A stretch of 64,000 bases of DNA from NCBI RefSeq assembly GCF_000015045.1, contig NC_008609.1, forward strand, positions 3,337,501-3,401,500, given 5' to 3'. The translations under genes and the position numbers were made by a program. This DNA is from Pelobacter propionicus DSM 2379. Lineage in GTDB: Bacteria > Desulfobacterota > Desulfuromonadia > Geobacterales > Pseudopelobacteraceae. The notes beneath the pieces were generated by a model. That model searched no databases and had not been told where the DNA came from. It saw only the letters and a program-made list of their open reading frames with translations. Shown here piece after piece: positions 5,773-64,000 of the stretch; position 1 is the first letter of the stretch; each line of letters begins with the position of its first letter.

Positions 5773-6396
5773 TCAATTTTGTGCCGCGAAATTTTTCAGT
5801 ATGCTTAAGCCCGCATGCTGGGACTTTTCCGGATGGAACTGGGTGGCAACGATGTTGTCCTTCCAAACGGCTGAACAGAACTCAGAGCCGTAGCCCGTGG
5901 TGGTGGCAACCACGCCGTCATCATCCGGCTTAACGTAGTACGAGTGCACGAAATAGACGTTGGTGCCCTCTTCGATGCCCTCAAAGGCTGGTGGCCGACG
6001 CCTGATATTGAGCTGGTTCCACCCCATGTGCGGGACCTTCAGCAGTTCTCCCCCCTCCCGCATCCCTTCGGGAAAGCGGAGCACATGCCCGGGTATTACA
6101 TTCAGCCCCGCATACAGGCCGAACTCCGAGCTATCGCTGAAGAGCAACTGCATTCCGACGCAGATCCCCAGAAAAGGGCGACCGTCGGAGATCACCTTGA
6201 GGATCGGCTCCACAAAACCGGCCTGCTCCAGGTTGCGCATGCAGTCGCGGAAAGCCCCAACGCCGGGGAGCACGATCTTATCAGCCTCCAGGATCAGCCG
6301 GGGATCATCGGTAACAACCGCCTCGACGCCGACCCTTTCAAAGCCCTTCTGCACGGAGCGGAGGTTGCCCATGCCATAATCGATAATTGCAATCAC
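5773..6396 (-). CDS. hisH: Imidazole glycerol phosphate synthase glutaminase subunit HisH
   Basis: Class I glutamine amidotransferase that feeds ammonia to HisF. The 207-residue protein has nucleophile Cys79 in [12 protein letters not shown] and the His188/Glu190 pair in TQFHPEKSQ, so the triad is complete. The start is GTG, and it overlaps the stop of the upstream chemoreceptor gene as GTGA. Translation is therefore probably coupled to that gene rather than to hisB, the usual upstream neighbour. Confidence 0.96.
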
Positions 6397-7949
6397 GTTA
6401 CACCGTTCTTGGTTAAATGGGGGCCGTATTTCTTATCAACACCTTTGATATGGTTGACCAGCCAGTTCTGCAGAAATGTAATCACGTCCTGGGTAAGAAG
6501 GGCCTGACCATCTCGAAAGCGCCCCTGCAACTCCACGACCTGGTCCACCAGCTTCCTGTGCAGTTCCCGGTGCTGCGCCTCTTCGGGATAGCCGGTACGG
6601 GAGAAGGCCCGCTCCTCTCCGGCGAAATGGTTGACCGTGTAGTCGGCCAGGCCGTCCAGGATCTGGCCGATGGCCTCCTTGCTCCGCTTCTGCTGCATGG
6701 CATCGTGCAGGTCGTTGACCATCCGGAACAGCGTCTTGTGCTCATCGTCGAAGGTTCCGATGCCGGTGGCAAAGGAGGCATCCCACTCCAGCGCATTGGA
6801 GAGCCGGAAATGCCCCACCAGTTCATGCAACCGGTCCACCTGTTCCGACAACCTGGCTGTGGCGACCGTCGTGCCGCGGGCGCTTTCCACATTGCGTTCG
6901 ACCACGCTGGTGATCATCTGGATGTTCTGGGTAATCTCGCTGGTTGTGGCGGTCTGTTCCTCGGCTGCGGTGGCGATCTGGCTGACCTGCATGGCCAGTT
7001 CGTTGATCCTGCCGAGAATATCCTCCAGAGCCTCGCCAGAGCGGGCGGTCTCCTCGGTTCCCTGGCCGACCTGATCGACCCCCTCCACCATGGAGTCAAC
7101 CGCTGCCTGGGTTTCCACCTGGATAGCCGTGATCATGCCGCCGATCTCCCGGGTGGCCTTGGTGGTCCGCTCGGCCAGTGCGCGCACCTCATCGGCAACC
7201 ACGGCGAAACCGCGCCCCTGCTCCCCTGCCCGGGCAGCCTCGATGGCCGCATTCAGCGCCAGCAGGTTGGTCTGATCCGCTATGTCCTGAATGGTATTAA
7301 CGATGGCGCCGATCTGGTCCGAGCGCTGCCCCAGTCCCTCAACGGTATGGGACGACTCGTTCACGCGCTTGGCAATGTTATCCATCAGGCGGGCGCTGTT
7401 CTGGACGATCTGCGAGCCGCTGTGGGTCTGTTCGGTGGCCTTCTGGGCATTTTCCGCTGCATACAGGCAGTTGCGGGCGATGTCACCGGAGGTGGCTGCC
7501 ATCTCTTCGCTGGCGGTGGCGATGGTGCTGGACTGGATAGCCACCTCCTCGGCTGCCGACGCCATGGCCTCGGTCGTGGAGCGGACCATGACCACCGAGT
7601 CACGCACCAGATCGGCAACGGAGAAGAACTGCCGCATGGCCTGGTTCATGTCGGTCATCATGGTGTTGAAGGCGGTGGCCAGGCGGACGGCCTCACTCCC
7701 CCCGCCCAGCTCGGCGCGAACCGACAGGTCTCCGCCAGCAGCCCGCTCGAGCGCGGCGATGATCCCGGCGAGCGGCTTGAAGGCGCTGCGGCTGAAGCGC
7801 ACGATCAGGCCTGAGCTGACCGCCAGGAGCAGCAGACAGATCAGGCCGTTGATCAGGAGGTCACCCCGCGGGTTGAAGATGCTGATTGCTGCAATGCTCA
7901 ACAGTATGACAATGGCATTACAGAGGATGATGCGTGCGGTAGCGGACAT
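6393..7949 (-). CDS. Methyl-accepting chemotaxis protein with C-terminal bacteriohemerythrin domain
   Basis: A 518-residue putative oxygen- or redox-sensing chemoreceptor. Two hydrophobic segments (about residues 8-25 and 32-50) are separated by only a few residues, so there is no periplasmic sensor domain. A HAMP-like region (~50-105) and a long MCP signalling coiled coil follow, with the conserved hairpin tip ([32 protein letters not shown]). The last ~130 residues are hemerythrin: [36 protein letters not shown] and HIKGVDKKY give the His/Glu/Asp di-iron ligands. I infer that the diiron centre reports oxygen to the CheA array from the cytoplasm. AGGGAG precedes the ATG. Its stop overlaps hisH, an unusual neighbour. 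Confidence 0.9.
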
Positions 7950-8037
7950 GTCGGCACTCTCCCTGAAGACGATTTGGAGACAGGGTGCAACTCAAAAAGC
8001 GGCGGCGCAGGATAACGCCCGGATACTGATCCGGTTG

Positions 8038-10101
8038 TTACGCTATGCGTGAAAAATCGGCGATCCGTCCGAACATGCGGTCTATGGCCGTCAGCAGGGC
8101 CAGGCGGTTGCTGCGCACCCGCTGATCCTCGGCCATGACCATGACCTTGTCGAAAAAGCCGTCAACCGGGGCGCGCAGACCGGCGATACGGGTCAGGGCA
8201 TCCTGCCACGCTCCCTGCTCGACCAGTGCGCTGACATGCACCTTGACCTCATGGAAGGCCTGGTACAGGGCACCCTCGGCGGCGTCCTGGAACAGGGACG
8301 GATCGACCAAGGCATCGGTGCCCCCCTTGATGATGTTGCCAATGCGCTTGAAGGCCACCGCCAGCGGCTCGAAGTCGGGGTGGGACTTGAACTGCGCCAG
8401 GGCCGCGACGCGGCTCTTCACATCCACCAGGTCGTCAAACTCGGCCGAAACAGCCGCCTCCACCGCGTCAGCGTCGAATTCGCCTCCCAGGAGGTTGACG
8501 AAGCGGCCGCGGAAAAACTCCAGCACCTCAGTTGCAACCTGCTCCTTCGGCCTGAGGAGCTTGGCCTCCAGCAGATCAAGGGAGCGGTCGATCAGGGAGG
8601 CAAGCCCCAGGCGATAGCCCCTGTCCAGGATGATGGCGATGATGCCGATGGTGGCCCGCCGCAGGGCATAGGGGTCGGCGGCGCCGGTGGGAATCAGCCC
8701 CACGCTGAAACAGCCGCAGATGGTGTCAAGCTTGTCAGCAATGGAGACGAACGCACCGATGTCGCTGGCAGGCAGCTCCCCACCGGCCTGGATCGGCAGG
8801 TAGTGCTCGGCAATGGCACAGGCCACGTCCCCTGATTCACCTTCCAGCAGCGCATATTCACGCCCCATGATCCCCTGCACCTCGGGAAACTCACCGACCA
8901 TGCCGGACACCAGATCCGCCTTGCAGAGCCAGGCGGCACGGGATGTCTCTGATTTCACAGCCGGGTTCAGCCTGTCGGCCAGTTCTTCGGCCAGCGCCCT
9001 GAAGCGTTCCATCTTTTCGAAGGAGGTGCCCAGCTTCTGCTGGTAGACCACCTTTTTCAACTCTTCCACACGCTCATCCAGCTTGACCTTCTGGTCCTCT
9101 TCGAAGAAGAAGCGTGCGTCGGAGAGACGCGCCCGGAGGACACGCTCGTTCCCCTTGACCACCACACCCGGATCATCGGTGAGAGTGTTGTTGATGGTGA
9201 TGAAGCCGGGCATGAGGTTGCCCTGGCCATCCACGATGGAGAAGTAGCGCTGGTGGCTGCGCATGGAGGTGATCAGCACCTCTTTGGGGACCTTGAGGAA
9301 TTCACGCGAGAAGGTTCCGTGCACGGCGCTGGGATACTCCACCAGGTAGGTGATCTGCTCCAGCAGCTCCTCGTCGGGCAGCAGGTGTCCGCCGGCTGCC
9401 GCGGCCACACGGTGGCTCTCGCGACGGATCAGCTCCTTGCGCCGTTCCGGGTCAACAATCACGAAGTGGCGCTCGCATTCGTCCAGGTAGTGGCTGAAAT
9501 TGCGCACCGGGAATGAGGTATTGGCCATGAAGCGGTGCCCGCGGGAGACACTACCGCTCTCGATGTTGCCGAAAACGAAGGGAACCACGATCCCGTCGAA
9601 CAGGGCCACGATCCAGTGGATCGGCCTGGCAAAGCGCACATCCAGATCCCCCCAGCGCATGGACTTCTTGAAGGGGATGCTGGCGATCATCGCCGGCAGG
9701 ATCTCCGACAGCAGCTCAGGGGTGGGCCGTCCGGTTTCCGTCTTGGTCACCGCCAGATACTCTCCCTTGTCGGTGGTGACGATCTGAAGCTGGTCGACCG
9801 TTACCCCCTGCCCCCTGGCGAAACCTTCCGCTGCTTTGGTCGGTTTGCCGTCGGCATCGAAGGCGGCCTTTTTGGAGGGGCCGGTGGCGGTAATCTCGGC
9901 ATCCGGCTGCACCGCCGGGATATCCTTCACCACCAGCGCCAAGCGGCGGGGCGTTGCCATGGTCTGCACCGTGGAATAGCTCAGGCGGGCATTGGTCAGT
10001 TCCCTGGTGATCATGGCCTCCATCTCGGCCATGGCCCGGGGAATAAACCCGGCCGGAATCTCCTCGGTACCGATTTCCAGAAAGAGTTCTTTGACGCCCA
10101 T
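8038..10101 (-). CDS. glyS: Glycyl-tRNA synthetase beta subunit
   Basis: Large subunit of the alpha2beta2 class II glycyl-tRNA synthetase; it provides tRNA recognition and HD/DALR-type C-terminal domains. 687 residues, standard length. The start [20 protein letters not shown] and later MRWGDLDVRFARPIHWI are family hallmarks. AAGGAGGTG inside the glyQ 3' end precedes the ATG, and start and upstream stop share one base (TGATG), so the two subunits should be made in step. Confidence 0.97.
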   Translation of the reverse strand: MGVKELFLEIGTEEIPAGFIPRAMAEMEAMITRELTNARLSYSTVQTMATPRRLALVVKDIPAVQPDAEITATGPSKKAAFDADGKPTKAAEGFARGQGVTVDQLQIVTTDKGEYLAVTKTETGRPTPELLSEILPAMIASIPFKKSMRWGDLDVRFARPIHWIVALFDGIVVPFVFGNIESGSVSRGHRFMANTSFPVRNFSHYLDECERHFVIVDPERRKELIRRESHRVAAAAGGHLLPDEELLEQITYLVEYPSAVHGTFSREFLKVPKEVLITSMRSHQRYFSIVDGQGNLMPGFITINNTLTDDPGVVVKGNERVLRARLSDARFFFEEDQKVKLDERVEELKKVVYQQKLGTSFEKMERFRALAEELADRLNPAVKSETSRAAWLCKADLVSGMVGEFPEVQGIMGREYALLEGESGDVACAIAEHYLPIQAGGELPASDIGAFVSIADKLDTICGCFSVGLIPTGAADPYALRRATIGIIAIILDRGYRLGLASLIDRSLDLLEAKLLRPKEQVATEVLEFFRGRFVNLLGGEFDADAVEAAVSAEFDDLVDVKSRVAALAQFKSHPDFEPLAVAFKRIGNIIKGGTDALVDPSLFQDAAEGALYQAFHEVKVHVSALVEQGAWQDALTRIAGLRAPVDGFFDKVMVMAEDQRVRSNRLALLTAIDRMFGRIADFSRIA

Positions 10102-49884: not shown

Positions 49885-50733
49885 CTTGTGTGAACCGGCG
49901 TGGAATATTGACCCCCAATAGGCGTCCAAGCCTGACCCACCCTCCAGTAAATCAGTCGGAATGGCAGATAGTTGAAGGTACATGCGGGTCACGGTTCGGC
50001 GCCGATGGTGGGTCAATTTTCAAAGCTGATTGACATCTACCAGGGGTATCTGCACACTTATGATGGTTTTTATACGGCGTCTTCCATGCTGCGCCGCTTT
50101 CCGTGGGATGGCTCGCGGAACCGGGCAAACTGGTCTATCTATAATGCTTTTTTCCGGAAAGGGGGCATTGCAACCCGTGACCGTCAGCAACTTATCGCCA
50201 TGCCGACACCCGAACCGGAATTTGCCGCCATCCCCCCCCCTGCTTCCACAAAAAGCGGAATGGCGGGAATTGGTGATGTCGGCAACCGCGACACGATAGA
50301 CAGCCTGTCACACGGCCCGAGAGATTGTTTGTATGGGCCACCCGAGAGGCAGCAGAACAGCAGGGTACATCAACGCTCCTTCCGTGAAGATCGCTGTTCT
50401 CCGGAGAAGCGACCTTTTGGGTATGCGTCCCGCACCGGACCGATATCAACCCACCTCCACCGCAGATCCATCCTCCGCTCATCATCGACACGCCTCTCCG
50501 CTCCCCCTCCGCCCCCATCCCGGCACGCGGTTGCCGCAGAGACTTTTCTTGTATTATCCGGTTTTTTGGGATAAATAAGGAATTTACGTTTGATCCGGGG
50601 CTGAGGCTAGCGTCGAACGTCCTGACGCGAAAAAACGACAAGGAAACAGCGGACCGGGCACATCGGTCACCCCCCAAAAGCCGCCGTATCCGTTGCAGTT
50701 CATTGCACCATTCAAAGAGGAGACTCCCGTTCG
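49885..50733. other. IS-like debris and gene-poor region upstream of the lipid-synthase locus
   Basis: The sequence holds an inverted pair of similar motifs, GAATATTGACCCCC (~49900-49916) and GGTGGGTCAATTTTC (~50004-50020), resembling terminal repeats of IS21-like elements by memory. A plus-strand frame (49972-50574) begins plausibly (FSKLIDIYQGYLHTYDGFYT) but turns into low-quality sequence and has no known family. A weak promoter-like pair (TTGTAT at ~50550, TAAATA at ~50573) lies ~160 bp before the PfaD-like gene. No other gene can be supported. Confidence 0.4.
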
Positions 50734-52398
50734 ATGTCGTATCAGTCACCGGGTACCACCACAATGGAACACCCCCTTCTGGGGTGGTGTCGGCCAGACG
50801 CCGCCCCCTGCTCCGGAACAGACCTGGCCGATGGCCTTCGCCGCCTTCACCGGCCGCTCTTCATCGCCGCCCAGGACGATTCCCTGACCCCCCTCTCCAG
50901 GCCACGGCTGCTGGCGGACAGTGAGCCACCACCGAGCGGCGCCCTGCCGCTGGTCGGCTTCTCCCCCCCATGTCCCCCTGAAAACCTGGGCGATCCCTCC
51001 TTCTGCGGGGAACTGGGAATCCGCTACCCCTACCTAGGCGGTTCCATGGCCAAGGGGATCAGTTCGGTGGCCATGGCGCTGGCCCTGGGCAGGGCAGGCA
51101 TGCTCGGCTTCTTCGGCGCCGCGGGCCTGACCATCTCCCAGGTGGAAGAGGCCGTCAACCAGCTCACGTCCAGCAAGGTTCCCTTCGGCTGCAACCTGAT
51201 CCATTCGCCCCACGACCCGGAACTGGAGCAGACCCTGGTTCAGCTCTACCTGGAGCGGAACGTGCGGCTGATGGAGGCATCGGCCTTCATGAAGCTGACC
51301 CTGCCGCTGGTGCGCTACCGCCTGGCCGGCATCCGCCGTAATGACGACGGCAGCATCCACACCCCCAACCGGATCATCGCCAAGGTCTCCCGAGAGGAGT
51401 TGGCGGCACGGTTCTTCGCCCCGCCACCCGAGGCGTTTCTTCACGAGCTGGTGGCGGACAAAGAGATCACCCACGAACAGGCGGAACTGGCTGCCCATAT
51501 CCCCATGGCCCAGGAGATCACCGCCGAGGCCGATTCCGGCGGGCACACCGACAACCGGCCAGCCAACGCCCTCTTCCCCACCATCGCATCCCTGGCGGCC
51601 CGCATGCAGGCCGAGCACAACTATGACCTGAGGCTGCGCGTCGGCCTGGGGGGAGGCATCTCCACACCTGCCGCGGCTGCGGCGGCCTTTGTCATGGGCG
51701 CGGCCTACGTCATGACCGGCTCGGTCAACCAGGCATGCCGGGAGTCGGGAACCTCGGACGAGGTGCGCGCCATGCTGGCCGAAACCCGCCAGGCAGACGT
51801 GACCATGGCCCCCTCGGCCGACATGTTCGAGATGGGGGTCAACGTGCAGGTACTCAAGCGCGGCACCATGTTCCCCATGCGCGCCCAGAAGCTGTACGAG
51901 ATCTACCGCGCCTGGCCGAGCCTGGAGCAGATCCCGACTCTCGAGCGTGAAAAGCTGGAAAAGACCATCTTCCAGGCGCCGCTGGAGCAGATCTGGAAGA
52001 TCACCCGCGACTACTTTCTTAAGCGCGCGCCGCAGCAGGTCAGCCGCGCCGAGCAGGACCCCAAACACCGCATGGCACTGGTCTTCCGCTGGTACCTGGG
52101 ACAGGCGGCCCACTGGGCCAAGGATGGCGACAGATCGCGCAGGATCGACTACCAGATCTGGTGCGGCCCGGCCATGGGCGCCTTCAACGAATGGGTCGCC
52201 GACTCCTTCCTGGAGCCCCCGGCCAACCGCGACGTGGTAACGGTCGGCCTGAACATCCTCTTCGGCGCAGCGCTCATGACCCGCGCCAGCGTACTGCGCT
52301 GCCAGGGGCTCCCCATCCCCCGGGAAGCCCTGACCACGAAACCGCTCGAACTCGCACATATCAAGGAGTATCTATCAGGTGAAAACGCTCGATCCTAA
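50734..52398 (+). CDS. PfaD-like enoyl reductase of a PUFA/secondary-lipid synthase
   Basis: A 554-residue FMN-dependent, nitronate-monooxygenase-like TIM barrel that acts in trans as the enoyl reductase of PUFA synthases. FCGELGIRYPYLGGSMAKGI, GFFGAAGLTISQVEEAVNQL, EADSGGHTDNRPANALFPTI (flavin-binding region) and RVGLGGGISTPAAAAAAFVM are family signatures. The protein is intact. AGAGGAG precedes the ATG at 50734. Its last 20 bases overlap the start of the PfaA-like gene. Having this gene first, before the two megasynthases, is the order described for myxobacterial pfa1-pfa2-pfa3. Confidence 0.9.
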   Translation: MSYQSPGTTTMEHPLLGWCRPDAAPCSGTDLADGLRRLHRPLFIAAQDDSLTPLSRPRLLADSEPPPSGALPLVGFSPPCPPENLGDPSFCGELGIRYPYLGGSMAKGISSVAMALALGRAGMLGFFGAAGLTISQVEEAVNQLTSSKVPFGCNLIHSPHDPELEQTLVQLYLERNVRLMEASAFMKLTLPLVRYRLAGIRRNDDGSIHTPNRIIAKVSREELAARFFAPPPEAFLHELVADKEITHEQAELAAHIPMAQEITAEADSGGHTDNRPANALFPTIASLAARMQAEHNYDLRLRVGLGGGISTPAAAAAAFVMGAAYVMTGSVNQACRESGTSDEVRAMLAETRQADVTMAPSADMFEMGVNVQVLKRGTMFPMRAQKLYEIYRAWPSLEQIPTLEREKLEKTIFQAPLEQIWKITRDYFLKRAPQQVSRAEQDPKHRMALVFRWYLGQAAHWAKDGDRSRRIDYQIWCGPAMGAFNEWVADSFLEPPANRDVVTVGLNILFGAALMTRASVLRCQGLPIPREALTTKPLELAHIKEYLSGENARS

Positions 52399-55300
52399 AC
52401 CGTCATCCTCCACCAACTCGGTACCACTGGCCATCATCGGCATCGGCTGTCTCTTCCCCCAGGCGGATGACATGCACGCCTACTGGTCCAACATAACGGA
52501 GGGGGTCGACTCCATCACCGATATTCCGCCCAGCCACTGGAAGGTTGCCGATTATTTCCATCAGGATCCCAAAAGCCCGGATCGCACCTACGGCCAGCGG
52601 GGCGGCTTTCTCTCAGCCATCGACTTCAACCCCATGGAGTTCAACATCCCCCCCAACGTGCTGGAGGCCATCGACACCTCCCAGCTGCTGGGGCTGGTGG
52701 CTGCCGGCCAGGCGTTGAAGGACGCCGGCTACGGAGCTGAGCGGGAGTACGACCGGAGCCGGGCCAGCGTGATCCTGGGAGTAACCGGCACCCTGGAGTT
52801 GGTGATCCCGCTGGGCGCCCGTCTGGGCCACCCGGTCTGGAAGCGGGCACTCAGGGAGGCCGGGGTGGAGCAGGACGTTGCCGACGACGTGGTGCAGCGC
52901 ATCTCCGACGCCTACGTCCCCTGGCAGGAGAACTCCTTCCCCGGGCTTCTGGGCAACGTGGTGGCCGGCAGGATCAGCAAGCAGTACGACCTGCACGGCA
53001 CCAACTGCGTGGTGGACGCGGCCTGCGCCAGCTCCTTCGGCGCACTGCACCTGGCGGCCATGGAGCTTGCCACCGGCAAGTCGGACATGGTCGTCACCGG
53101 CGGCATCGACACCTTCAACGACATCTTCATGTACATGTGCTTCAGCAAGACCCCGGCGCTCTCCCCCAGCGGCAACGCCAAACCGTTCGACGCATCGGCG
53201 GACGGCACCATCCTGGGCGAGGGACTGGGGATCGTGGTCATCAAGCGCCTGGCTGACGCGGAACGGGACAACGACCGGATTTACGCGGTGATCCGCGGCA
53301 TCGGTTCCTCCAGCGACGGCAAGGGGGACGCCATCTACGCCCCCAGCGCGGTCGGACAGAAGCGGGCGCTCTTGGACGCCTACCAACGCGCCGACGTCGC
53401 CCCGGAAAGCATCGGCCTGGTGGAGACCCACGGCACCGGCACCAAGGTGGGCGACGTGGTGGAGGTCAACGCCCTGCGCGAGGTGTACGGAGAGGCTGAA
53501 ACCCCCTGGTGTGCCTTAAGCTCGGTCAAAGCCCAGATCGGCCATGCCAAGGCCGCCGCCGGCGCCGCCGGCCTGATCAAGGCCGCCCTGGCACTGCACC
53601 ACAAGGTGCTCCCCCCCACCATCAAGGTCACAAACCCGCTCCGGGAAGTGACCGGCGGGGCAACCCCCTTCTACCTGACAACGGAGAAACGTCCCTGGCT
53701 CCCCCGCGGAGAAGCGCCACGTCGCGCCGGCGTCAGCGCCTTCGGCTTCGGCGGTTCCAATTTCCACCTGGTGCTGGAAGAGTATCGCTCACGCAAGGAG
53801 GCGGTGGAGTGGAACGGGAATGTCCAGATCATCTCCTTCTCCGCTGCCGATACGGCTGAACTTGAACGGGCACTGGACGGCGTTCCGGCGAACGGTCCGT
53901 GGAGCGAGCTGAGACAGGTGGCAGCCGCCAGCCGGGCCTCCTTCGACCCCGCGGCCCCCTGCCGCCTGGCGCTGGTGCTGGAACGGGACCAGACCAAGCC
54001 GGCAACGCTGGTTGCCAACGCCAGGACCATGCTGGCCAGAAAGCCTGACTCGTCTTGGAGCACCCCGGACGGCGCCTTCTTCGCCCGGGGCGAAAAGCCG
54101 GGCAGCCTGGCCATGCTCTTCCCCGGCCAGGGGGCCCAGTATACCGGCATGCTCAGGGACCTGGTCTGCCGCTTTCCCCAGGCCCTGGAGACCCTGGCCC
54201 AGGCCGACGAAGGCTTTGCCTCCCCGGACGGGAGACTGCTCTCCGACCTGATCTACCCCCCCAGCGCTTTTGACAACGACAGCAGGCAGAACCAGAATGA
54301 GCAGCTGCGGGCAACCCAGGCGGCCCAGCCCGCCATCGGTGCGGTCAGCCTGGCTGCCCTGAAGGTTCTGGAATCGTTCAATGTTCTCCCCGAGGCTGTG
54401 GCCGGCCACAGCTACGGCGAACTGACCGCCCTCTGCGCCGCCGGCAGCTACGACGAGACGGTATTCCACGAACTGTCCCGCCTGCGCGGCAGCCTGATGG
54501 CAGCGGGAAGCGGCGACCGGGGGAGCATGCTGGCGGTTCAGGCCCCCCTGGCAACGGTGGAGAGCGTCATCGCCGAGTCGGGCCTGGACCTGGTGATCGC
54601 CAACCGCAACGCCCCGCTGCAGGCGGTCCTGTCCGGCAGCAGCGCGGAAATCCAGCGGGCGCTGGCGATCTTTAGCGAAAAGAGCATCAACGCCACCCAA
54701 CTCCCGGTTGCGGCAGCCTTTCACAGCAGCCTGGTGGCCGACGCCGCCGTCCCCTTCCTGGAAGCCCTTGAGTCCCGGGAATTCAGGGGTCCCCGCATCC
54801 CGGTTTTTGCCAACAGCAGCGCAACCGAGTACCCGTCCGATCCCTCCCAGGCGAAATCCCTGCTGGCGCACCAGCTGGCCAGGCCGGTGGAGTTTGTGGC
54901 CCAGATCGAGGCAATGTACGCCGCCGGTACACGCACCTTCCTGGAGGTGGGCCCCGGCGCCCGCCTGACCGGCCTGGTTTCGGCCATCCTGGGCACAAAC
55001 GAGCATGTGGCCATGGCCATGGACGCATCGGCTGGAGCGCGCTCCGGCATGGCCGACCTGGCCCGTTCCCTGGCCCGCCTGGCGGTGCTGGGGCACGGGG
55101 TAAACCTGTCCGCCTGGGATGGCGACTACCAGCCTCCCCTGGCAACCACCAAGAAGCCGGCCATGACCGTGCCGATCTGCGGCGCCAACTACGTCAAACC
55201 GAAGCCCCAGCGCCCCGCCGCCAACCGGCCGACCCCGGCCCCGACACCAGTTCCGGCTCCGGCGGCAGCGGCGCCTGCTCCGGCCGTGTCACCCCAACCG

Positions 55301-58300
55301 GTTCCCGCGACCTCCGGCTCCCCGGTCACCGTTCCCCAGTCAGCGGCAAGCCATTCCCGCGACGCCCTGCTGGAGTCGCTTCGCATCACCAGGGAGGGGA
55401 TGTCCGTACTGCAGAAGATGCAGGAAGAAACCGCCCAGTTGCACCGCCGTTTCCTGGAGGGACAGGAGACCGCAAGCCGCACCATCCAGACCCTGCTGGA
55501 ACAGCAGCAGCATATCCTGCAGGGGGGAGCGGGGTATCCCGCTCCCCGTTCCCTGCCGGTCACTGCGGCCGCACTCCCGCAACCGGAACCCAGTGCGCCG
55601 CCCAGCGTCACCACCCGCCTTGCCACGCAAACGCCTGCGGCTGCAGTCGTCACACCCGTGGTCACGGCATCATCCCCCTCCGGCGACACCGTCACCCGCA
55701 CCCTGATGGCCGTCATAAGCGAGAAGACCGGCTATCCGGTGGAGATGCTGGAGCCGGACATGGGCATGGATTCAGACCTGGGCATCGACTCCATAAAACG
55801 GGTCGAGATACTCTCCAGCCTTCAGGAACAGCTTCCCGGAGCACCCGCCATCGGGCCGGAGCATCTGGCTACCCTGAGGACCCTGGGCGAGATCGCGGCG
55901 CACCTCTCAAAGGGAGCGGCTCCCACGGCAGTCACCGGCCAAGGCGCAACACCCCAGGCCAAGGTTCCGTCCCTGGAGAACGTCACCCGCACCCTGATGG
56001 CCGTCATCAGTGAGAAAACCGGCTATCCGGTGGAGATGCTGGAGCCGGACATGGGCATGGATTCAGACCTGGGCATCGACTCCATAAAACGGGTGGAGAT
56101 ACTCTCAGCGCTCCAGGAGCAGCTCCCCGGAGCACCCGCCATCGGGCCGGAGCATCTGGCGACCCTGAGGACCCTGGGCGAGATCGCGGCGCACCTCTCA
56201 AAGGGAGCGGCTCCCACGACAGTCACCGGCCAGGGCGCAGCACCCCAGGCCAAGGTTCCGTCGGCAGCCCTCTCCCTGGAGAACGTCACCCGCACCCTGC
56301 TGGCCGTCATCAGCGAGAAGACCGGCTATCCGGTGGAGATGCTTGAGCCGGACATGGGCATGGATTCAGACCTGGGCATCGACTCCATAAAACGGGTGGA
56401 GATACTCTCCAGCCTTCAGGAACAGCTTCCCGGAGCACCCGCCATCGGGCCGGAGCATCTGGCTACCCTGAGGACCCTGGGCGAGATCGCGGCGCACCTC
56501 TCAAAGGGAGCGGCTCCCACTACAGTCACCGGCCAGGGCGCAGCGCCCCAGGCCAACGCTCCGTCGGCAGCCCTCTCCCTGGAGAACGTCACCCACACCC
56601 TGCTGGCCGTCATCAGCGAGAAAACCGGCTATCCGGTGGAGATGCTGGAACCGGACATGGGCATGGATTCAGACCTGGGCATCGACTCCATAAAACGGGT
56701 CGAGATACTCTCAGCGCTCCAGGAGCAGCTCCCCGGAGCACCCGCCATCGGGCCGGAGCATCTGGCTACCCTGAGGACCCTGGGCGAGATCGCGGCGCAC
56801 CTGGCAAAAGCAGCGGCACCGGCAACGGCGGCCGTCCAACCGGAACAATCAGCCGCGCCGGCGATGCAGCGCAAAGCGGAGCCTGTTCGCACCGCCCAGC
56901 CGGTCAACCGCAGCAGCATCGTACCGGTGGCGCTGGGCAACCCGAGCGAACCGCTGGAACTGGCTGACGGCGAGCTGTGGATTAGCGACGACGGCTCCTC
57001 CCTGTCCAGCGGGCTGCGCGACCTGCTGGCAGCAGGCGGCCGCACGGTGCGCCTGTTGTCCCTGGAAGAGGCTCGGGAGGCAGCGCCCACCGCAGACCTG
57101 GCCGGTCTGGTCATCATCGCCCCGGCCAATGGTTCCGATGACGACTTTCTCCAGCAGGCCTTCCTGCTGCTGAAGAGCGCCGCCTCCCCCCTGCGCCGGG
57201 CCGGCGCCACCGGCGGCGCCCTGTTCGCCACCATCTCCCGCCTGGACGGCTGCTTCGGCTGTGGGGCGGGAAGCGAACTTGCGGACCCCCTCTCCGGGGG
57301 GTTGGCCGGACTGGCAAAGACCGCCGGCCACGAGTGGTCCGACGTGACCTGCAGGGCCATCGACCTGGGCAGCTTCCCCGACGGCAACGCCGCCCTGGGC
57401 GCCCTGGCCAGGGAGTTGCTGCACACGGGACCGGTGGAGGTGGGACTCTCACCCTCGGGCCGCATTGCCCTGGAAATGGCCGACCTTCCCGGCCTGGAAA
57501 CGCCTTCCACGCCCCCCCTCGGCGAGGGTGAGGTGGTGGTGATCACCGGAGGGGGACGAGGGGTGACAACCGAGGCGACAGTCGCCCTGGCACGGGCCTA
57601 CCGGCCACTGCTGGTCCTTCTGGGCAGGAGCAGGCTGGTGACCGACGAACCGTCCTGGCTGGCCCCCCTGACCGAGGAGAGCGCCATCAAACGGGCCATC
57701 CTGGAACATGCCACGGAAAAGCTGCACCCCAAGGCCATCGAGGAACAGTACCGGGCCCTGAAGGCGGGGCGCGAGCTGCGGGCAACACTGGCGCGGGTGG
57801 AGGCGGCAGGCGGCAAGGCGATCTACTGCTCCGTGGACATCCGCGACAGCCAGGCGGTGGCCGAACTGCTGCAGCGGATCCGCAATGACCACGGCCCGAT
57901 CCGGGGCATCATCCACGGCGCCGGCGTCCTGGCCGACCGCCTGATCGCGGACAAGACCCTGGAGCAGTTCGCCATGGTCTACGGAACCAAGGTGGGTGGG
58001 CTGCGCTCGCTGCTGGACGCCACCAGCATGGACGACCTGCGTTTCATCGCCCTCTTCTCCTCCACCACCGGACGCTTCGGCCGTTCCGGCCAGGTGGACT
58101 ACGCCGTGGCAAACGAGGTGCTCAACAAGCTGGCCCAGGCCGAGGCGCGCCGCCGCCCGGACTGCCGCTGCGTCAGCATCAACTGGGGTCCCTGGGACGG
58201 CGGCATGGTCACCCCGGCCCTGAAAAAGGTCTTTGCCGGCGAGGGGATCGGCCTGATCGGTCTCGACGAGGGGGGAGAGTTGCTGATCCGCGAGATCGCG

Positions 58301-59272
58301 GCAGCGGACGCCCCGGTGGAGGTGGTCGCCATGGCCATCACCACCAACGAGGCGCTGAAGGCTCCCCGGCCAGCCGCGTCAAAGCAGCTCAGCGAGACCT
58401 TTTCCCTGAACCTCAGCGTGGATGCTTACCCCTTCCTGCGCTCCCACGTCATGGACGGCAGGGCGGTGCTCCCCATGGCGGTGATCGTTGAATGGCTCTC
58501 CCACGGGGCGCTGCACGACAACCCCGGCTTCCGCTTCCACGGCTTCAACGACCTGCGCATCTGCAAGGGGGTCATATTCGAGCACACTACCCCCTACAGC
58601 GTGCGGATCATGGCCGGAAAGGCAGAGAAGCGTGATTCGCTCTACAATGTAACGGTGGAACTGGTCGGCTCGGGATCCGAGGGACGCCCCGTCCTGCATG
58701 CCCGGGGTGAAATCGTGCTGGCCAGGAAGCTCCCCGAGGGAATCCGCTCCATCCCCGATCCCCCCGCCGCCCCCTATGCGCCCCCGGGCGACCGGATCTA
58801 CGACCCGCAGCGGCTGTTCCACGGACCGGACCTGCAGGGCATCGAAGAGGTGGAGAGCTGCTGCGAGCGGGGGATCTCGGCCCTGGTGAAGGCCGCCCCC
58901 CAGCCTGCCAGCTGGATCAGGAGCCCTTTCCGCAGCGACTGGATCAGCGACCCGCTCTCCCTGGACAGCGCCTTCCAGCTGATGATCCTGTGGAGTTTTG
59001 AACGCTTCGGCGCCGGCTCGCTCCCCTGCTTCGCGGGACGCTTCCGCCAGTACCACGACAGCTTCCCCCGCGACGGTGTCCAGGTGGTCATCCGGGTCAC
59101 CGCGGAACGGGAGCATGGCGCAACGGCCGACATGGAGTTTCTGGAGCGCGGCAGCGGAAAGCTGGTGGCACGCCTGGAGGGATACGAGTGCGTCATCGAC
59201 CCCTCCCTTGCCCAGGCATTCCAGCGCAACAAACTGTCCCGGGCGGGCCAGGACGCACTGAGAGCCGCCTGA
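52379..59272 (+). CDS. PfaA-like polyketide/PUFA synthase, KS-AT-ACPx4-KR-DH
   Basis: A 2297-residue iterative megasynthase starting at a GTG (AAGGAG ten bases upstream) inside the PfaD-like gene. Domains: ketosynthase ~15-465 (Cys216 in VVDAACASSFG; HGTGTKVGD; SSVKAQIGHAKAAAGAAG); malonyl-type acyltransferase ~575-890 (Ser678 in AGHSYGELTALCA); Pro/Ala linker ~940-990 and helical segment; four nearly identical ACPs with phosphopantetheine Ser1138, Ser1235, Ser1336 and Ser1437 in LGIDSIKRVEIL; ketoreductase ~1715-1990 (VVVITGGGRGVTTEATVALA); C-terminal dehydratase-like hotdog region ~2005-2270 (YPFLRSHVMDGRAVLPM). The architecture is that of PfaA in EPA/DHA synthases. No methyltransferase or thioesterase is seen. 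Product unknown. Confidence 0.92.
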   Translation: MKTLDPKPSSSTNSVPLAIIGIGCLFPQADDMHAYWSNITEGVDSITDIPPSHWKVADYFHQDPKSPDRTYGQRGGFLSAIDFNPMEFNIPPNVLEAIDTSQLLGLVAAGQALKDAGYGAEREYDRSRASVILGVTGTLELVIPLGARLGHPVWKRALREAGVEQDVADDVVQRISDAYVPWQENSFPGLLGNVVAGRISKQYDLHGTNCVVDAACASSFGALHLAAMELATGKSDMVVTGGIDTFNDIFMYMCFSKTPALSPSGNAKPFDASADGTILGEGLGIVVIKRLADAERDNDRIYAVIRGIGSSSDGKGDAIYAPSAVGQKRALLDAYQRADVAPESIGLVETHGTGTKVGDVVEVNALREVYGEAETPWCALSSVKAQIGHAKAAAGAAGLIKAALALHHKVLPPTIKVTNPLREVTGGATPFYLTTEKRPWLPRGEAPRRAGVSAFGFGGSNFHLVLEEYRSRKEAVEWNGNVQIISFSAADTAELERALDGVPANGPWSELRQVAAASRASFDPAAPCRLALVLERDQTKPATLVANARTMLARKPDSSWSTPDGAFFARGEKPGSLAMLFPGQGAQYTGMLRDLVCRFPQALETLAQADEGFASPDGRLLSDLIYPPSAFDNDSRQNQNEQLRATQAAQPAIGAVSLAALKVLESFNVLPEAVAGHSYGELTALCAAGSYDETVFHELSRLRGSLMAAGSGDRGSMLAVQAPLATVESVIAESGLDLVIANRNAPLQAVLSGSSAEIQRALAIFSEKSINATQLPVAAAFHSSLVADAAVPFLEALESREFRGPRIPVFANSSATEYPSDPSQAKSLLAHQLARPVEFVAQIEAMYAAGTRTFLEVGPGARLTGLVSAILGTNEHVAMAMDASAGARSGMADLARSLARLAVLGHGVNLSAWDGDYQPPLATTKKPAMTVPICGANYVKPKPQRPAANRPTPAPTPVPAPAAAAPAPAVSPQPVPATSGSPVTVPQSAASHSRDALLESLRITREGMSVLQKMQEETAQLHRRFLEGQETASRTIQTLLEQQQHILQGGAGYPAPRSLPVTAAALPQPEPSAPPSVTTRLATQTPAAAVVTPVVTASSPSGDTVTRTLMAVISEKTGYPVEMLEPDMGMDSDLGIDSIKRVEILSSLQEQLPGAPAIGPEHLATLRTLGEIAAHLSKGAAPTAVTGQGATPQAKVPSLENVTRTLMAVISEKTGYPVEMLEPDMGMDSDLGIDSIKRVEILSALQEQLPGAPAIGPEHLATLRTLGEIAAHLSKGAAPTTVTGQGAAPQAKVPSAALSLENVTRTLLAVISEKTGYPVEMLEPDMGMDSDLGIDSIKRVEILSSLQEQLPGAPAIGPEHLATLRTLGEIAAHLSKGAAPTTVTGQGAAPQANAPSAALSLENVTHTLLAVISEKTGYPVEMLEPDMGMDSDLGIDSIKRVEILSALQEQLPGAPAIGPEHLATLRTLGEIAAHLAKAAAPATAAVQPEQSAAPAMQRKAEPVRTAQPVNRSSIVPVALGNPSEPLELADGELWISDDGSSLSSGLRDLLAAGGRTVRLLSLEEAREAAPTADLAGLVIIAPANGSDDDFLQQAFLLLKSAASPLRRAGATGGALFATISRLDGCFGCGAGSELADPLSGGLAGLAKTAGHEWSDVTCRAIDLGSFPDGNAALGALARELLHTGPVEVGLSPSGRIALEMADLPGLETPSTPPLGEGEVVVITGGGRGVTTEATVALARAYRPLLVLLGRSRLVTDEPSWLAPLTEESAIKRAILEHATEKLHPKAIEEQYRALKAGRELRATLARVEAAGGKAIYCSVDIRDSQAVAELLQRIRNDHGPIRGIIHGAGVLADRLIADKTLEQFAMVYGTKVGGLRSLLDATSMDDLRFIALFSSTTGRFGRSGQVDYAVANEVLNKLAQAEARRRPDCRCVSINWGPWDGGMVTPALKKVFAGEGIGLIGLDEGGELLIREIAAADAPVEVVAMAITTNEALKAPRPAASKQLSETFSLNLSVDAYPFLRSHVMDGRAVLPMAVIVEWLSHGALHDNPGFRFHGFNDLRICKGVIFEHTTPYSVRIMAGKAEKRDSLYNVTVELVGSGSEGRPVLHARGEIVLARKLPEGIRSIPDPPAAPYAPPGDRIYDPQRLFHGPDLQGIEEVESCCERGISALVKAAPQPASWIRSPFRSDWISDPLSLDSAFQLMILWSFERFGAGSLPCFAGRFRQYHDSFPRDGVQVVIRVTAEREHGATADMEFLERGSGKLVARLEGYECVIDPSLAQAFQRNKLSRAGQDALRAA
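55691..56808 (+). repeat. Four tandem ACP-coding repeats
   Basis: Four near-identical DNA units starting at 55691, 55982, 56285 and 56588 (spacing 291, 303 and 303 bp, all multiples of three). Each encodes ISEKTGYPVEMLEPDMGMDS and LGIDSIKRVEIL. Linkers (SKGAAPT.VTGQGA.PQA) are also conserved. Units 1 and 3 share SSLQEQ; units 2 and 4 share SALQEQ, hinting at duplication in pairs or gene conversion. Confidence 0.95.
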
Positions 59273-59273
59273 G

Positions 59274-62200
59274 ATGCACCAGTCATCATCTGTCGCGATC
59301 GTAGGGATCGGAGGTATCTTTCCCGATGCACCGGATCTTGCCCGCTTCTGGGACAACATCCGCCTGGCCAGGAGCGCTAGCCGGGTTGTTCCCGAGGGAC
59401 GCTGGCGCCTCGGGGTGGAGACGGCCTATCACCCCGAGGTGGGGAGGGTCGACCATGTCTACTCCCGCCACGGCTGCTTCATCCAGGAGATCCCCTCCCT
59501 TGCCGGCCTGAGCGGCCTTGCGCCCGGCTTCCAGTTGCCGGACGGCCTGGACCCGCTCTTCCACCTGCTGATCCACGCCGGCACGCGGGCCTTTGACGAC
59601 GGCATCACCGAACCGCTGGACCGCTCCCGCATCGGCGTCATCATCGGCAACCTGGCCCTGCCCAGCGAGACCTCGGCGCTTATCTCCCGTCAGTGGCTGG
59701 GGAGGAGTTTCCAGGAGAAGCTGCTGGGACACGCCCCGCAAGCTTCCGCCGTCAACCCGATCAATCGCTACGTCGCCGGTCTGCCGGCAGGGATGCTGGC
59801 CCAGGCCCTCGGCCTGGGCGGCACGAGCTGCGCCCTGGACGCGGCCTGCGCCTCCTCGCTCTACGCCATCAAGCTCGCCTGCGACGAGCTGCTCTCCGGC
59901 CGCACCGACGCCATGCTCTCCGGCGGCCTCTCCCGCCCCGACCCGCTCTACACCCAGATGGGCTTCTCCCAGTTGCGCGCCCTGTCGAGGCGCGGTATCT
60001 GCTCCCCCTTCGACGCCTCGGGCGACGGCCTGGTGGTGGGCGAAGGGGCCGGCATCTTCCTGCTCAAGCGGACCGAGGATGCCCTGGCCCATGGCGACCG
60101 AATCTACGGCATCATCCGGGGCATCGGTCTCTCCAACGACGTGGGAGGCAGCCTTCTGGCCCCCCTCTCCGAGGGACAGGTGCGCGCCATGCGCAACGCC
60201 TACGCCAGGGCGGGCTGGGACCCGTCCGACGTCGACCTGATCGAATGCCACGCCACCGGAACCCAGGTGGGGGACGCCACCGAGGTGGCCAGCCTGCGGG
60301 AGCTGTGGGGCGCCAGCCGTCCCGAGGGGAGAACCTGCGTCATCGGCTCCATCAAATCCAACATCGGCCACCTGCTCACCGCCGCCGGCGCCGCGGCCCT
60401 GACCAAGGTACTCCTGGCCATGACCGAGGAACAGCTCCCCCCCACCGCCAACTTCAGTTCCCCCCAGCCGGGCATGGACCTGGACAACAGCCCCTTCCGG
60501 GTGCTGACCGAGGGTATCCCCTGGGAGCGTCGCGGCAAGGGCATCCCCCGCAGGGCCGCGGTGAGCGCCTTCGGCTTTGGCGGCATCAACGCCCATCTAC
60601 TGGTGGAGGAATGGCTTCCGGAAAGCGGGCGAACCCGGCCGGGCAAACACGACCAGAAACCCAAACCGCACCCCGGCGTGGCGGTGGTCGGCATGGATGC
60701 CCGCTTCGGACCCTGGCAATCGCTGCGTGCGTTCCAGGAGCGGGTGCTGGGAGGCGGGCCCCACACAACCCCCACACCCCCCACCAGATGGTGGGGAGCC
60801 CAGGAGAGCGCCTGGTACCAGGAAGAGGGGCTGCAGCAAACCCCCTTCAACGGCTTCTACCTGGACGAGGTGGCCGTGGCCGCGGAGCAGTTCCGCATTC
60901 CTCCCCGCGAGATCGAGGAGATGCTGCCCCAGCAGATCCTGATGCTCACCTCAGCCGCGGCCGCCATGGCCGACGCCGGCCTGGACCGGGAGGGAAACCT
61001 GAGGGCCGGTGTATTTGTCGGCATCAGCCTTGACCTGAACAGCACCAATTTCAGCTTCCGCTGGTCCCTGGCAGAACGGGCGAAGGAGTGGGCCAGGGAG
61101 TTGGGACGCCAGATGTCGGCCGAGGAGCTGGCCAGCTGGATTAACCAGCTGCGCGATGACGCCTCCCCCCCCCTGACCGCCAACCGTACCATGGGCGCCC
61201 TGGGGAACATCGTGGCCAGCAGGATCGCCCGCGAATTCCGGGTGGGAGGCCCCAGCTTCGCCCTGGCAGGGGAGGAGAATTCCGGCATCCGCTCCCTGGA
61301 AACAGCCGCGCGCATGCTCCAGTCCGGCGAAATCGACCGTGCCCTGGTGGGGGCGGTGGACCTGGCCGGCGACCTGCGCGCCGTGCTGGGACGCCATGAC
61401 CAACGGCCGTTCTCCACATCCGGCCGGGCTCTCCCCTTCGACCAGCGGGCCGACGGTTCCCTGGCGGGAGAGGGGGCGGCCAGCGTGGTGCTCAAGCGCC
61501 TGGACGACGCCGAGCGCGACGGGGACCGGATCTACGCCGTCATCCGCGGCATCGGCAGCTCCAGCGGCGAAACCACCACCTCCAGCCGGGAAGAGGGCTA
61601 CTGCCGGGCCCTGGAACGGGCCTACAGCGACGCAGGCGTCAACCCAGTCACTGTCTCCTACCTGGAGGCCCATGCCAGCGGCCTGCCCGCCGAGGACCGC
61701 ATGGAGGCGGCCGCCCTGGCGAGCTTCTTCGGCACCAGTCCCACGGACGACACCCCTCCCCGACGGGAGCGTTCCTGCGCCGTCTCCAGCGTCGCCGCCG
61801 ACATCGGCCAGAGCGGCGCTGCCTCGGGCCTGGCCTCCCTGGTGCGTGGCTGCCTGGCCCTCTACCAGGAAATCATCCCCCCCTGTCGCGGCGTGGAGAC
61901 GCCCTGCCACGAGCTTTCCTCCCCTGGGCCGCTGTATATCCCCCGCGCCCCGCGCTATTGGCTGCGCAACCGGGGCGAGGGGCCGCGGCGGGCCGGGGTC
62001 AGCGTGTTCAGTACGGATGGCGGATGCAGCCATGTTGTCCTGGAGGGATGGGACAACCAGCCGCAGCGCTTCGAAGCGGAACGCATGGCGCCGCTGGGTC
62101 CGGGATCGGAATTTCTCTTCACCCTCTGCGGCGACAATCCGGCCGACCTGACCCGCGGGCTCGGCCTGCTGCGCCAGCGCGCGGCCCATGCAGCGGATGA

Positions 62201-64000
62201 CGGCCTGGGGACCCTGGCCCGAGAATGGTACGACCGCGCAGTGACGCACGACAGCGAGGCAAAAGCGCGCCCCCGCGCCCTGGCCCTGGTTGCCCGCACC
62301 CGGGACGAGCTCATGGCGCTGATCGACCGGGGGGAGGAGCTGCTGGCCTCGGGATGTTCCACCGCCGAACTGCTGGCCCACCCTGCCCTGCACGACCGGC
62401 TGTTCTACTCCCCCGCCCCCTTGGGACTGGAGGGAAAGCTGGCCTTCGTCTTCCCCGGCTCCGGCAACCACTACCCGGGCATGGGCATGGAACTTTCCTG
62501 CCACTGGCCAGGAATCCTGCGCAGCCAGGACGAGAACAACCTCTACCTGCGCAGCCAGTTCCAGCCGGAACGGTTCTGGAACGGCGCTCCTTCGGCCGAG
62601 ATAGATAACGACCACCGGGCGGTACTCTTCGGCCAGGTGGCCATCGGCTGCATCGCCAGCGACCTGGTGCGCGGCTTCGGCGTGGAACCGCAGGCGGCCA
62701 TCGGCTACAGCCTGGGCGAATCGGCGGCCCTATTTGCCCTGGGCGCCTGGCACGACCGGGACGGCATGCTGACCCGCATGCACAACTCCACCCTCTTCAC
62801 CCGCGATCTGGCCGGGGAATGCCGGGCAGCGCAACGCGCCTGGGGGCTGGCCGAGGGGACCGAAGTGCAGTGGAGCATCGGCATGGTGGCCGCCTCTGCA
62901 ACGGAGGTTACCCGTGCGCTGGAGGGAACGGCGCGGGTCTACCTGCTGATCGTCAACACCCCGGATGAATGCGTGATCGGCGGAGACAGCGACGAGGTCA
63001 GCCAGGTGGTGGAACGGATCAAGCGCCCCTTCTTCCCCCTGCGGGGGGTGACCACGGCTCACTGCGGCGTGGCCAGGGAGGTGGCCGGACCCTACCGGCA
63101 GCTGCACCTCTTCCCCACCACCCCGCCAGCGGGAATCCGTTTCTACAGCGGCGCCAGGAACGCTGCCTACGAGCTCAACCGTGAGAGCGCGGCAGACTCG
63201 ATCCTTGCCCAGGCGGTGGAGGGGATCAACTTCCCGGCCACCATCCAGCAGGCCTATGACGACGGGGTGCGACTATTCCTGGAGATGGGTCCGGGCAGTT
63301 CCTGCAGCCGGATGATCGGCCGCATCCTGGAGGAGCGTCCCCACCTGGCCAGGCCCATCTGCCACCAGGGGCAGGACCAGCTCTCCGGACTTTTGCGCCT
63401 GCTGGCCCAGCTGACGGCGGAGCGGGTTCCCCTGGACCTCTCCCCGCTCTTCCCCGCGCCCGCGGTTACCCTGGCGGAGAAAGCAAAGGGGACCATGGTT
63501 CGCGTCCCCTGCGGCGGGCTGCCGTTCCAGCCCTCCCTCCCGCCGCGCCGCAGCCGGCCGGCACTGAAACAGGACCCGCCACCGTCCGAGGCGTCCGTTC
63601 CCCGTGAAGGGGGAGGAGCTCAACCGGCATCCCTACCCTTCTCCAGAGAAGAGAGGCGCGCCCATAGCTCCCCTCATGACCTGGGCACCTCCCTGCACGG
63701 TCAGGTGATCAACGACTTCGCTGCCTCCCAGCAGGCGCAGATCAGGGCCCACGAGGCATACCTCAAGGTCTCCGAAAACCTGACCGGCGGCATGCTCCAG
63801 GCCCTGCGGCTCCAGGCGGCCCTGACCCAGGCCCTGGGGGATGACCTGCCTCCGGTTCTCCCCCCCCTTGCCGGGGAAGAAGCCGGTGCTGTTACGGCGG
63901 CAAGCACGCCCCCCCGCCCCGCGCCACCCAGAACCTGCGTCTTCGACCGCGACATGTGCCTGGAGTTCGCCACGGGAAGCGTGGGACGTATGCTGGGGCC
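59274..64000 (+). CDS. PfaC-like synthase, KS-CLF-AT-DH... (cut by right edge)
   Basis: 1575 codons are present; the gene continues beyond the window. It starts one base after the PfaA-like stop. Domains: active ketosynthase ~5-450 (Cys192 in ALDAACASSLYAIKLACDEL; ECHATGTQVGD; SIKSNIGHLLTAAGA); a second KS-like domain ~465-930 that lacks the Cys (GPSFALAGEENSG, Glu at that place), i.e. a chain-length-factor domain; an acyltransferase ~1055-1370 (Ser1146 in IGYSLGESAALFALGAW); a Pro-rich linker; and at the edge CVFDRDMCLEFATGSVGRML, the typical entry of a FabA-like dehydratase. The KS-CLF-AT-DH order fits myxobacterial Pfa3 or thraustochytrid subunit B better than marine gammaproteobacterial PfaC. 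Confidence 0.9.
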   Translation, partial: MHQSSSVAIVGIGGIFPDAPDLARFWDNIRLARSASRVVPEGRWRLGVETAYHPEVGRVDHVYSRHGCFIQEIPSLAGLSGLAPGFQLPDGLDPLFHLLIHAGTRAFDDGITEPLDRSRIGVIIGNLALPSETSALISRQWLGRSFQEKLLGHAPQASAVNPINRYVAGLPAGMLAQALGLGGTSCALDAACASSLYAIKLACDELLSGRTDAMLSGGLSRPDPLYTQMGFSQLRALSRRGICSPFDASGDGLVVGEGAGIFLLKRTEDALAHGDRIYGIIRGIGLSNDVGGSLLAPLSEGQVRAMRNAYARAGWDPSDVDLIECHATGTQVGDATEVASLRELWGASRPEGRTCVIGSIKSNIGHLLTAAGAAALTKVLLAMTEEQLPPTANFSSPQPGMDLDNSPFRVLTEGIPWERRGKGIPRRAAVSAFGFGGINAHLLVEEWLPESGRTRPGKHDQKPKPHPGVAVVGMDARFGPWQSLRAFQERVLGGGPHTTPTPPTRWWGAQESAWYQEEGLQQTPFNGFYLDEVAVAAEQFRIPPREIEEMLPQQILMLTSAAAAMADAGLDREGNLRAGVFVGISLDLNSTNFSFRWSLAERAKEWARELGRQMSAEELASWINQLRDDASPPLTANRTMGALGNIVASRIAREFRVGGPSFALAGEENSGIRSLETAARMLQSGEIDRALVGAVDLAGDLRAVLGRHDQRPFSTSGRALPFDQRADGSLAGEGAASVVLKRLDDAERDGDRIYAVIRGIGSSSGETTTSSREEGYCRALERAYSDAGVNPVTVSYLEAHASGLPAEDRMEAAALASFFGTSPTDDTPPRRERSCAVSSVAADIGQSGAASGLASLVRGCLALYQEIIPPCRGVETPCHELSSPGPLYIPRAPRYWLRNRGEGPRRAGVSVFSTDGGCSHVVLEGWDNQPQRFEAERMAPLGPGSEFLFTLCGDNPADLTRGLGLLRQRAAHAADDGLGTLAREWYDRAVTHDSEAKARPRALALVARTRDELMALIDRGEELLASGCSTAELLAHPALHDRLFYSPAPLGLEGKLAFVFPGSGNHYPGMGMELSCHWPGILRSQDENNLYLRSQFQPERFWNGAPSAEIDNDHRAVLFGQVAIGCIASDLVRGFGVEPQAAIGYSLGESAALFALGAWHDRDGMLTRMHNSTLFTRDLAGECRAAQRAWGLAEGTEVQWSIGMVAASATEVTRALEGTARVYLLIVNTPDECVIGGDSDEVSQVVERIKRPFFPLRGVTTAHCGVAREVAGPYRQLHLFPTTPPAGIRFYSGARNAAYELNRESAADSILAQAVEGINFPATIQQAYDDGVRLFLEMGPGSSCSRMIGRILEERPHLARPICHQGQDQLSGLLRLLAQLTAERVPLDLSPLFPAPAVTLAEKAKGTMVRVPCGGLPFQPSLPPRRSRPALKQDPPPSEASVPREGGGAQPASLPFSREERRAHSSPHDLGTSLHGQVINDFAASQQAQIRAHEAYLKVSENLTGGMLQALRLQAALTQALGDDLPPVLPPLAGEEAGAVTAASTPPRPAPPRTCVFDRDMCLEFATGSVGRMLG

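Follow-up and report, generated by a model that had tools for sequence, protein, structure and literature searches.

A Pfa-type synthase locus linked to ole hydrocarbon genes in Pelobacter propionicus

We analysed a window of 64,000 nucleotides from the genome of Pelobacter propionicus DSM 2379, in which base n corresponds to base 3337500+n of the genome's contig C3. Three synthase genes lie at the downstream end of the window, and ole genes and a phosphopantetheinyl transferase gene follow beyond base 64000 (positions carrying the prefix C3 refer to the contig, all others to the window):

50734..52398, + strand: pfaD, 554 aa, PfaD-family enoyl reductase (TIGR02814, PF21607, PF03060)
52379..59272, + strand: pfaA, 2297 aa, KS-AT-ACP×4-KR-DH (TIGR02813, ordered Pfam domains, catalytic motifs)
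55690..56817, + strand: ACP tandem repeats inside pfaA, 303-bp unit, 3.8 copies
59274..64000 in the window, full ORF to C3:3403784, + strand: pfaBC fusion, KS-CLF-AT, then FabA-type dehydratases outside the window
C3:3403784-3404827, + strand: oleA, starting at the last base of pfaBC (1-base overlap)
about C3:3404800-3405711, + strand: oleB, overlapping oleA, alpha/beta hydrolase
C3:3419199-3420908, + strand: oleC, AMP-binding enzyme
C3:3420905-3421900, + strand: oleD, SDR
C3:3421908-3422636, + strand: pfaE, phosphopantetheinyl transferase, 242 aa, with PF01648 at C3:3422274

A preliminary description had recognised three tightly packed genes for an enoyl reductase, a KS-AT-ACPx4-KR-DH protein and a third synthase protein, and by open reading frames and family models these are real and intact. 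All three are + strand genes; pfaA begins within the last 20 bp of pfaD, and a 1-bp gap separates pfaA from pfaBC. The pfaD product scored 615.8 bits against TIGR02814 (cut-off 449) and the pfaA product 1745.7 bits against TIGR02813 (cut-off 1010). The third protein had been given as KS-CLF-AT-DH; KS, CLF and AT do lie within the window (1575 aa), but the dehydratase part begins at about the last window base and was found complete in the organism's own genome, where the ORF runs stop-free to 2336 aa and ends in three FabA-like stretches, so that reading past base 64000 revealed no disruption of the DH region. This AT-containing protein matched the PfaB model below threshold, and its best PDB match, over 861 aa, was 6riw, which we take to be PfaC of Moritella marina (database label 'ORF10'). 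The locus holds the features of a Pfa synthase: a PfaA above its model cut-off with tandem ACPs, a KS-CLF with FabA-type dehydratases, and PfaD with a linked phosphopantetheinyl transferase. A search of positions 50000-51000 for a sigma-70-like promoter or a terminator pattern found neither.

Every catalytic motif that we searched for in the Pfa proteins was present, in agreement with the earlier statement that those catalytic residues which could be located are intact. The KS motifs read DAACASS, ETHGT and KAQIGH in PfaA and DAACASS, ECHATGT and KSNIGH in PfaBC, and the CLF of PfaBC is without the Cys (AGEENSG). The AT motifs are GHSYGE and GYSLGE, the KR motif is YAVAN, the PfaA DH carries HVMDGRAVLP and LDSAFQ, and the FabA-type dehydratases carry HFVDDRVMPG and HFYQDPVTPG. 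PfaA contains four ACPs, each with the motif LGIDSIKR (aa 1134, 1231, 1332 and 1433); the copies examined in Geobacteraceae have between 2 and 5. The four units are 88-97% identical to one another in DNA, a degree of identity that would fit recent duplication or homogenisation.

We placed the ketosynthases in a tree of 62 KS and CLF domains, which included seven sampled PKS domains, no authenticated Hgl sequence, and the 6riw sequence as taken from an alignment. The PfaA KS fell in a single clade (support 99/100), the PfaBC KS grouped with the 6riw KS (100/100) and the PfaBC CLF with the 6riw CLF (100/100), and the seven PKS domains lay outside the Pfa clades. An ordinary polyketide synthase is rejected by this tree and by the PfaA model score. 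The tree was the comparison with Pfa sequences that had been proposed as a check, and it joins the family models, domain order and catalytic motifs in upholding the original assignment to the PUFA-type (Pfa) synthases. In all three clades the sequence from this genome branched with that of G058, the nearest genome (same genus), next with Pelobacter and next with Citrifermentans and Geomonas; since the same order recurs three times, nothing points to a recent acquisition of the genes by transfer. Elsewhere on the contig, at C3:958242-977728 (L012, L013), lies a second group of ketosynthase genes, close to genes for an AMP-binding enzyme and a 4HBT protein; it is perhaps an aryl-polyene-type cluster.

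Beyond the window, the OleA thiolase, OleB, OleC and OleD are all present and intact by family models and motifs. OleA scored 498 bits against PRK09258 (cut-off 285) and carries NACLG, EPAT and CHQVG; OleB carries VHDWGG, OleC TSGSTGPPKG, OleD GGGGFLG and YPRTK, and PfaE GVDIE and WTRKEAYLKG. The functional meaning of these Ole and phosphopantetheinyl transferase motifs is well established. oleC, oleD and pfaE are tightly packed, 14 kb on from oleAB. The genome contains two PF01648 phosphopantetheinyl transferase genes, one of which is pfaE, about 19 kb from pfaBC; the transferase that was to be sought downstream is thus there. Its P1b motif reads FNLAH, with Ala in place of the Ser in the (F/S)NxSH given for Type I clusters by Shulse & Allen (PMC3098273). 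A search near the pfa locus for a pfaT-like thioesterase of the 4HBT type found none.

This arrangement is a published one. Shulse & Allen (2011, PMC3098273) describe a Type I secondary-lipid synthase with a pfaBC fusion from Geobacter, Pelobacter, Desulfuromonas and one planctomycete and propose it as a supplier of olefin precursors, and such clusters are described as usually linked to oleABCD (PMC3098273, PMC4882568). A 2016 review (PMC4882568) describes a tandem array of pfaDABC, oleABCD and pfaE in Geobacter bemidjiensis, which is reported to make hentriacontanonaene, C31:9 (PMC3098273, PMC4882568). The preliminary description held that Geobacter-like bacteria were not known as producers of this kind and that the product was open; in view of these reports, neither point is supported. 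In the present locus, too, pfaB and pfaC are fused (2336 aa) and the host is a deltaproteobacterium of the Geobacter/Pelobacter group; Pelobacter, Citrifermentans and Geomonas are its neighbours in the tree. With the Type I clusters, including that of G. bemidjiensis, the locus has in common the host lineage, the set of genes, the pfaBC fusion, pfaD in first place and the linkage to ole and phosphopantetheinyl transferase genes; unlike in G. bemidjiensis, oleC-oleD-pfaE do not adjoin oleB but stand 13.5 kb away from it. The enzymatic set and the grouping of the PfaBC KS and CLF with 6riw are shared with the marine gammaproteobacterial Pfa synthases accompanied by oleABCD (Shewanella, Moritella, Photobacterium); unlike in those, PfaB and PfaC are fused, PfaD comes first and the lineage is another. 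The locus is this genome's copy of an already described cluster, ordinary for the host family.

We counted the genes across 76 genomes of the host family. pfaD was found in 47, oleA in 43 and oleC in 47 genomes. Genomes with pfaD nearly always carried oleC (46/47; Fisher p 2e-18) and mostly oleA (42/47; Fisher p 1e-14), and neither ole gene occurred in 28 of the 29 genomes lacking pfaD. The pfaD-oleA distance was 13.2-14.0 kb in 30/30 compared genomes with both genes on one contig. When 84,980 species genomes were scanned, PfaD relatives also turned up far outside the family, for example in Planctomycetota, Acidobacteriota and Gammaproteobacteria. On plasmid AZO_p1 of Azospirillum lipoferum 4B (831414-862056; L166) lies a PfaD-like and PfaA-like pair with about 48-49% identity.

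The only local peculiarity of the cluster is the 13.5-kb stretch between oleB and oleC (C3:3405711-3419199; L068:2211-15699), and such gaps recur in the family. It holds mostly opposite-strand genes, among them an MCP chemotaxis receptor, two sigma-54 regulators, an SDR, AIM24 and DUF533. Three + strand ORFs past oleB (L010:5588-6385, 6304-7830 and 7870-8631) were without family match; the latter two, which overlap the opposite-strand MCP gene, were dismissed as shadows. The oleA-oleC gap was at most about 3.1 kb in 27 of the 33 genomes with both genes on one contig, the six exceptions being 4.3, 8.7, 11.6, 11.7, 14.4 (this genome) and 273 kb. Six relatives whose synteny was read directly had oleABCD contiguous or nearly so, followed in four by a PfaE homologue; in G058, oleC is on another contig and there is no AIM24 gene. 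The split between oleAB and oleCD-pfaE appears to be a derived rearrangement that recurs in the family. Given this distance and the opposite-strand genes between, joint expression of oleC, oleD and pfaE with oleAB cannot be taken as given.

We consider it very probable that the locus encodes a Type I Pfa synthase that feeds the Ole pathway, whose end product would most likely be hentriacontanonaene (C31:9). The analysis itself shows the genes with their domain order and catalytic motifs, their linkage and their co-occurrence in the family, whereas we infer from relatives the substrate, the product and the hand-over between OleA and ACP. The 'alkene precursor' named earlier among several options is then the likely one, with the ole genes a short way beyond base 64000. 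PfaE would activate the ACPs on PfaA, which would then carry the growing chain, and the ketosynthases, acyltransferases, ketoreductase and dehydratases of PfaA and PfaBC would, with PfaD, build a polyunsaturated medium-chain acyl-ACP without O2. This product is most likely a polyunsaturated C16 chain; the value of about C16:4 is taken from Shewanella work. OleA would condense a pair of these chains head to head, after which OleB, OleC and OleD would convert the beta-keto product to the internal olefin. In E. coli, pfaA-E with oleA gave a 31:8 ketone, probably from ACP-bound chains (Allemann et al., PMC6463001).

With its full set of Pfa domains, FabA-type dehydratases and PfaD included, the synthase might instead mainly make C20-C22 PUFA (EPA/DHA-like) for phospholipids, with hydrocarbon as a side product as in Shewanella pealeana, and in Shewanella one synthase does yield both (PMC6463001). 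We regard this as unlikely: pfa and ole are almost perfectly co-inherited in the host family, and the passages cited give C31:9 and not PUFA for a Geobacter (PMC4882568, PMC3098273). Free EPA/DHA, known of gammaproteobacterial Pfa, is not reported there for the host family. It is very improbable that the locus encodes a synthase of the heterocyst-glycolipid-like type, or of some other secondary-lipid type, whose product is a very long chain that is saturated or hydroxylated. Such synthases share the KS-AT-ACP-KR architecture, but the PfaA score is far over its cut-off, FabA-type dehydratases and PfaD are present, the gene neighbours are ole and not hgl, and the KS-CLF didomain sits with PfaC 6riw, apart from the sampled PKS in a tree without authenticated Hgl sequences.

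The split ole genes bear on a further reading, in which the 13.5-kb separation uncouples the pathway and leaves a polyunsaturated ketone or other intermediate in place of the olefin. The opposite-strand MCP, sigma-54 regulator, AIM24 and DUF533 genes in the stretch and the 31:8 ketone formed by OleA without the other Ole proteins (PMC6463001) would suit it; OleC, OleD and PfaE are, however, intact with their motifs kept, and five other family genomes with similar gaps retain the genes, so that we give it hardly any credence. That the split lets the lineage express Pfa-OleAB without OleCD, making such a ketone or intermediate a regulated alternative end product, is a highly doubtful variant.

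The locus contributes a further complete genome to those known for this cluster. The co-inheritance of pfa and ole across the family (46/47 with oleC) lends support to the proposal, already in print, that hydrocarbon formation is what the synthase of the Geobacteraceae is for.
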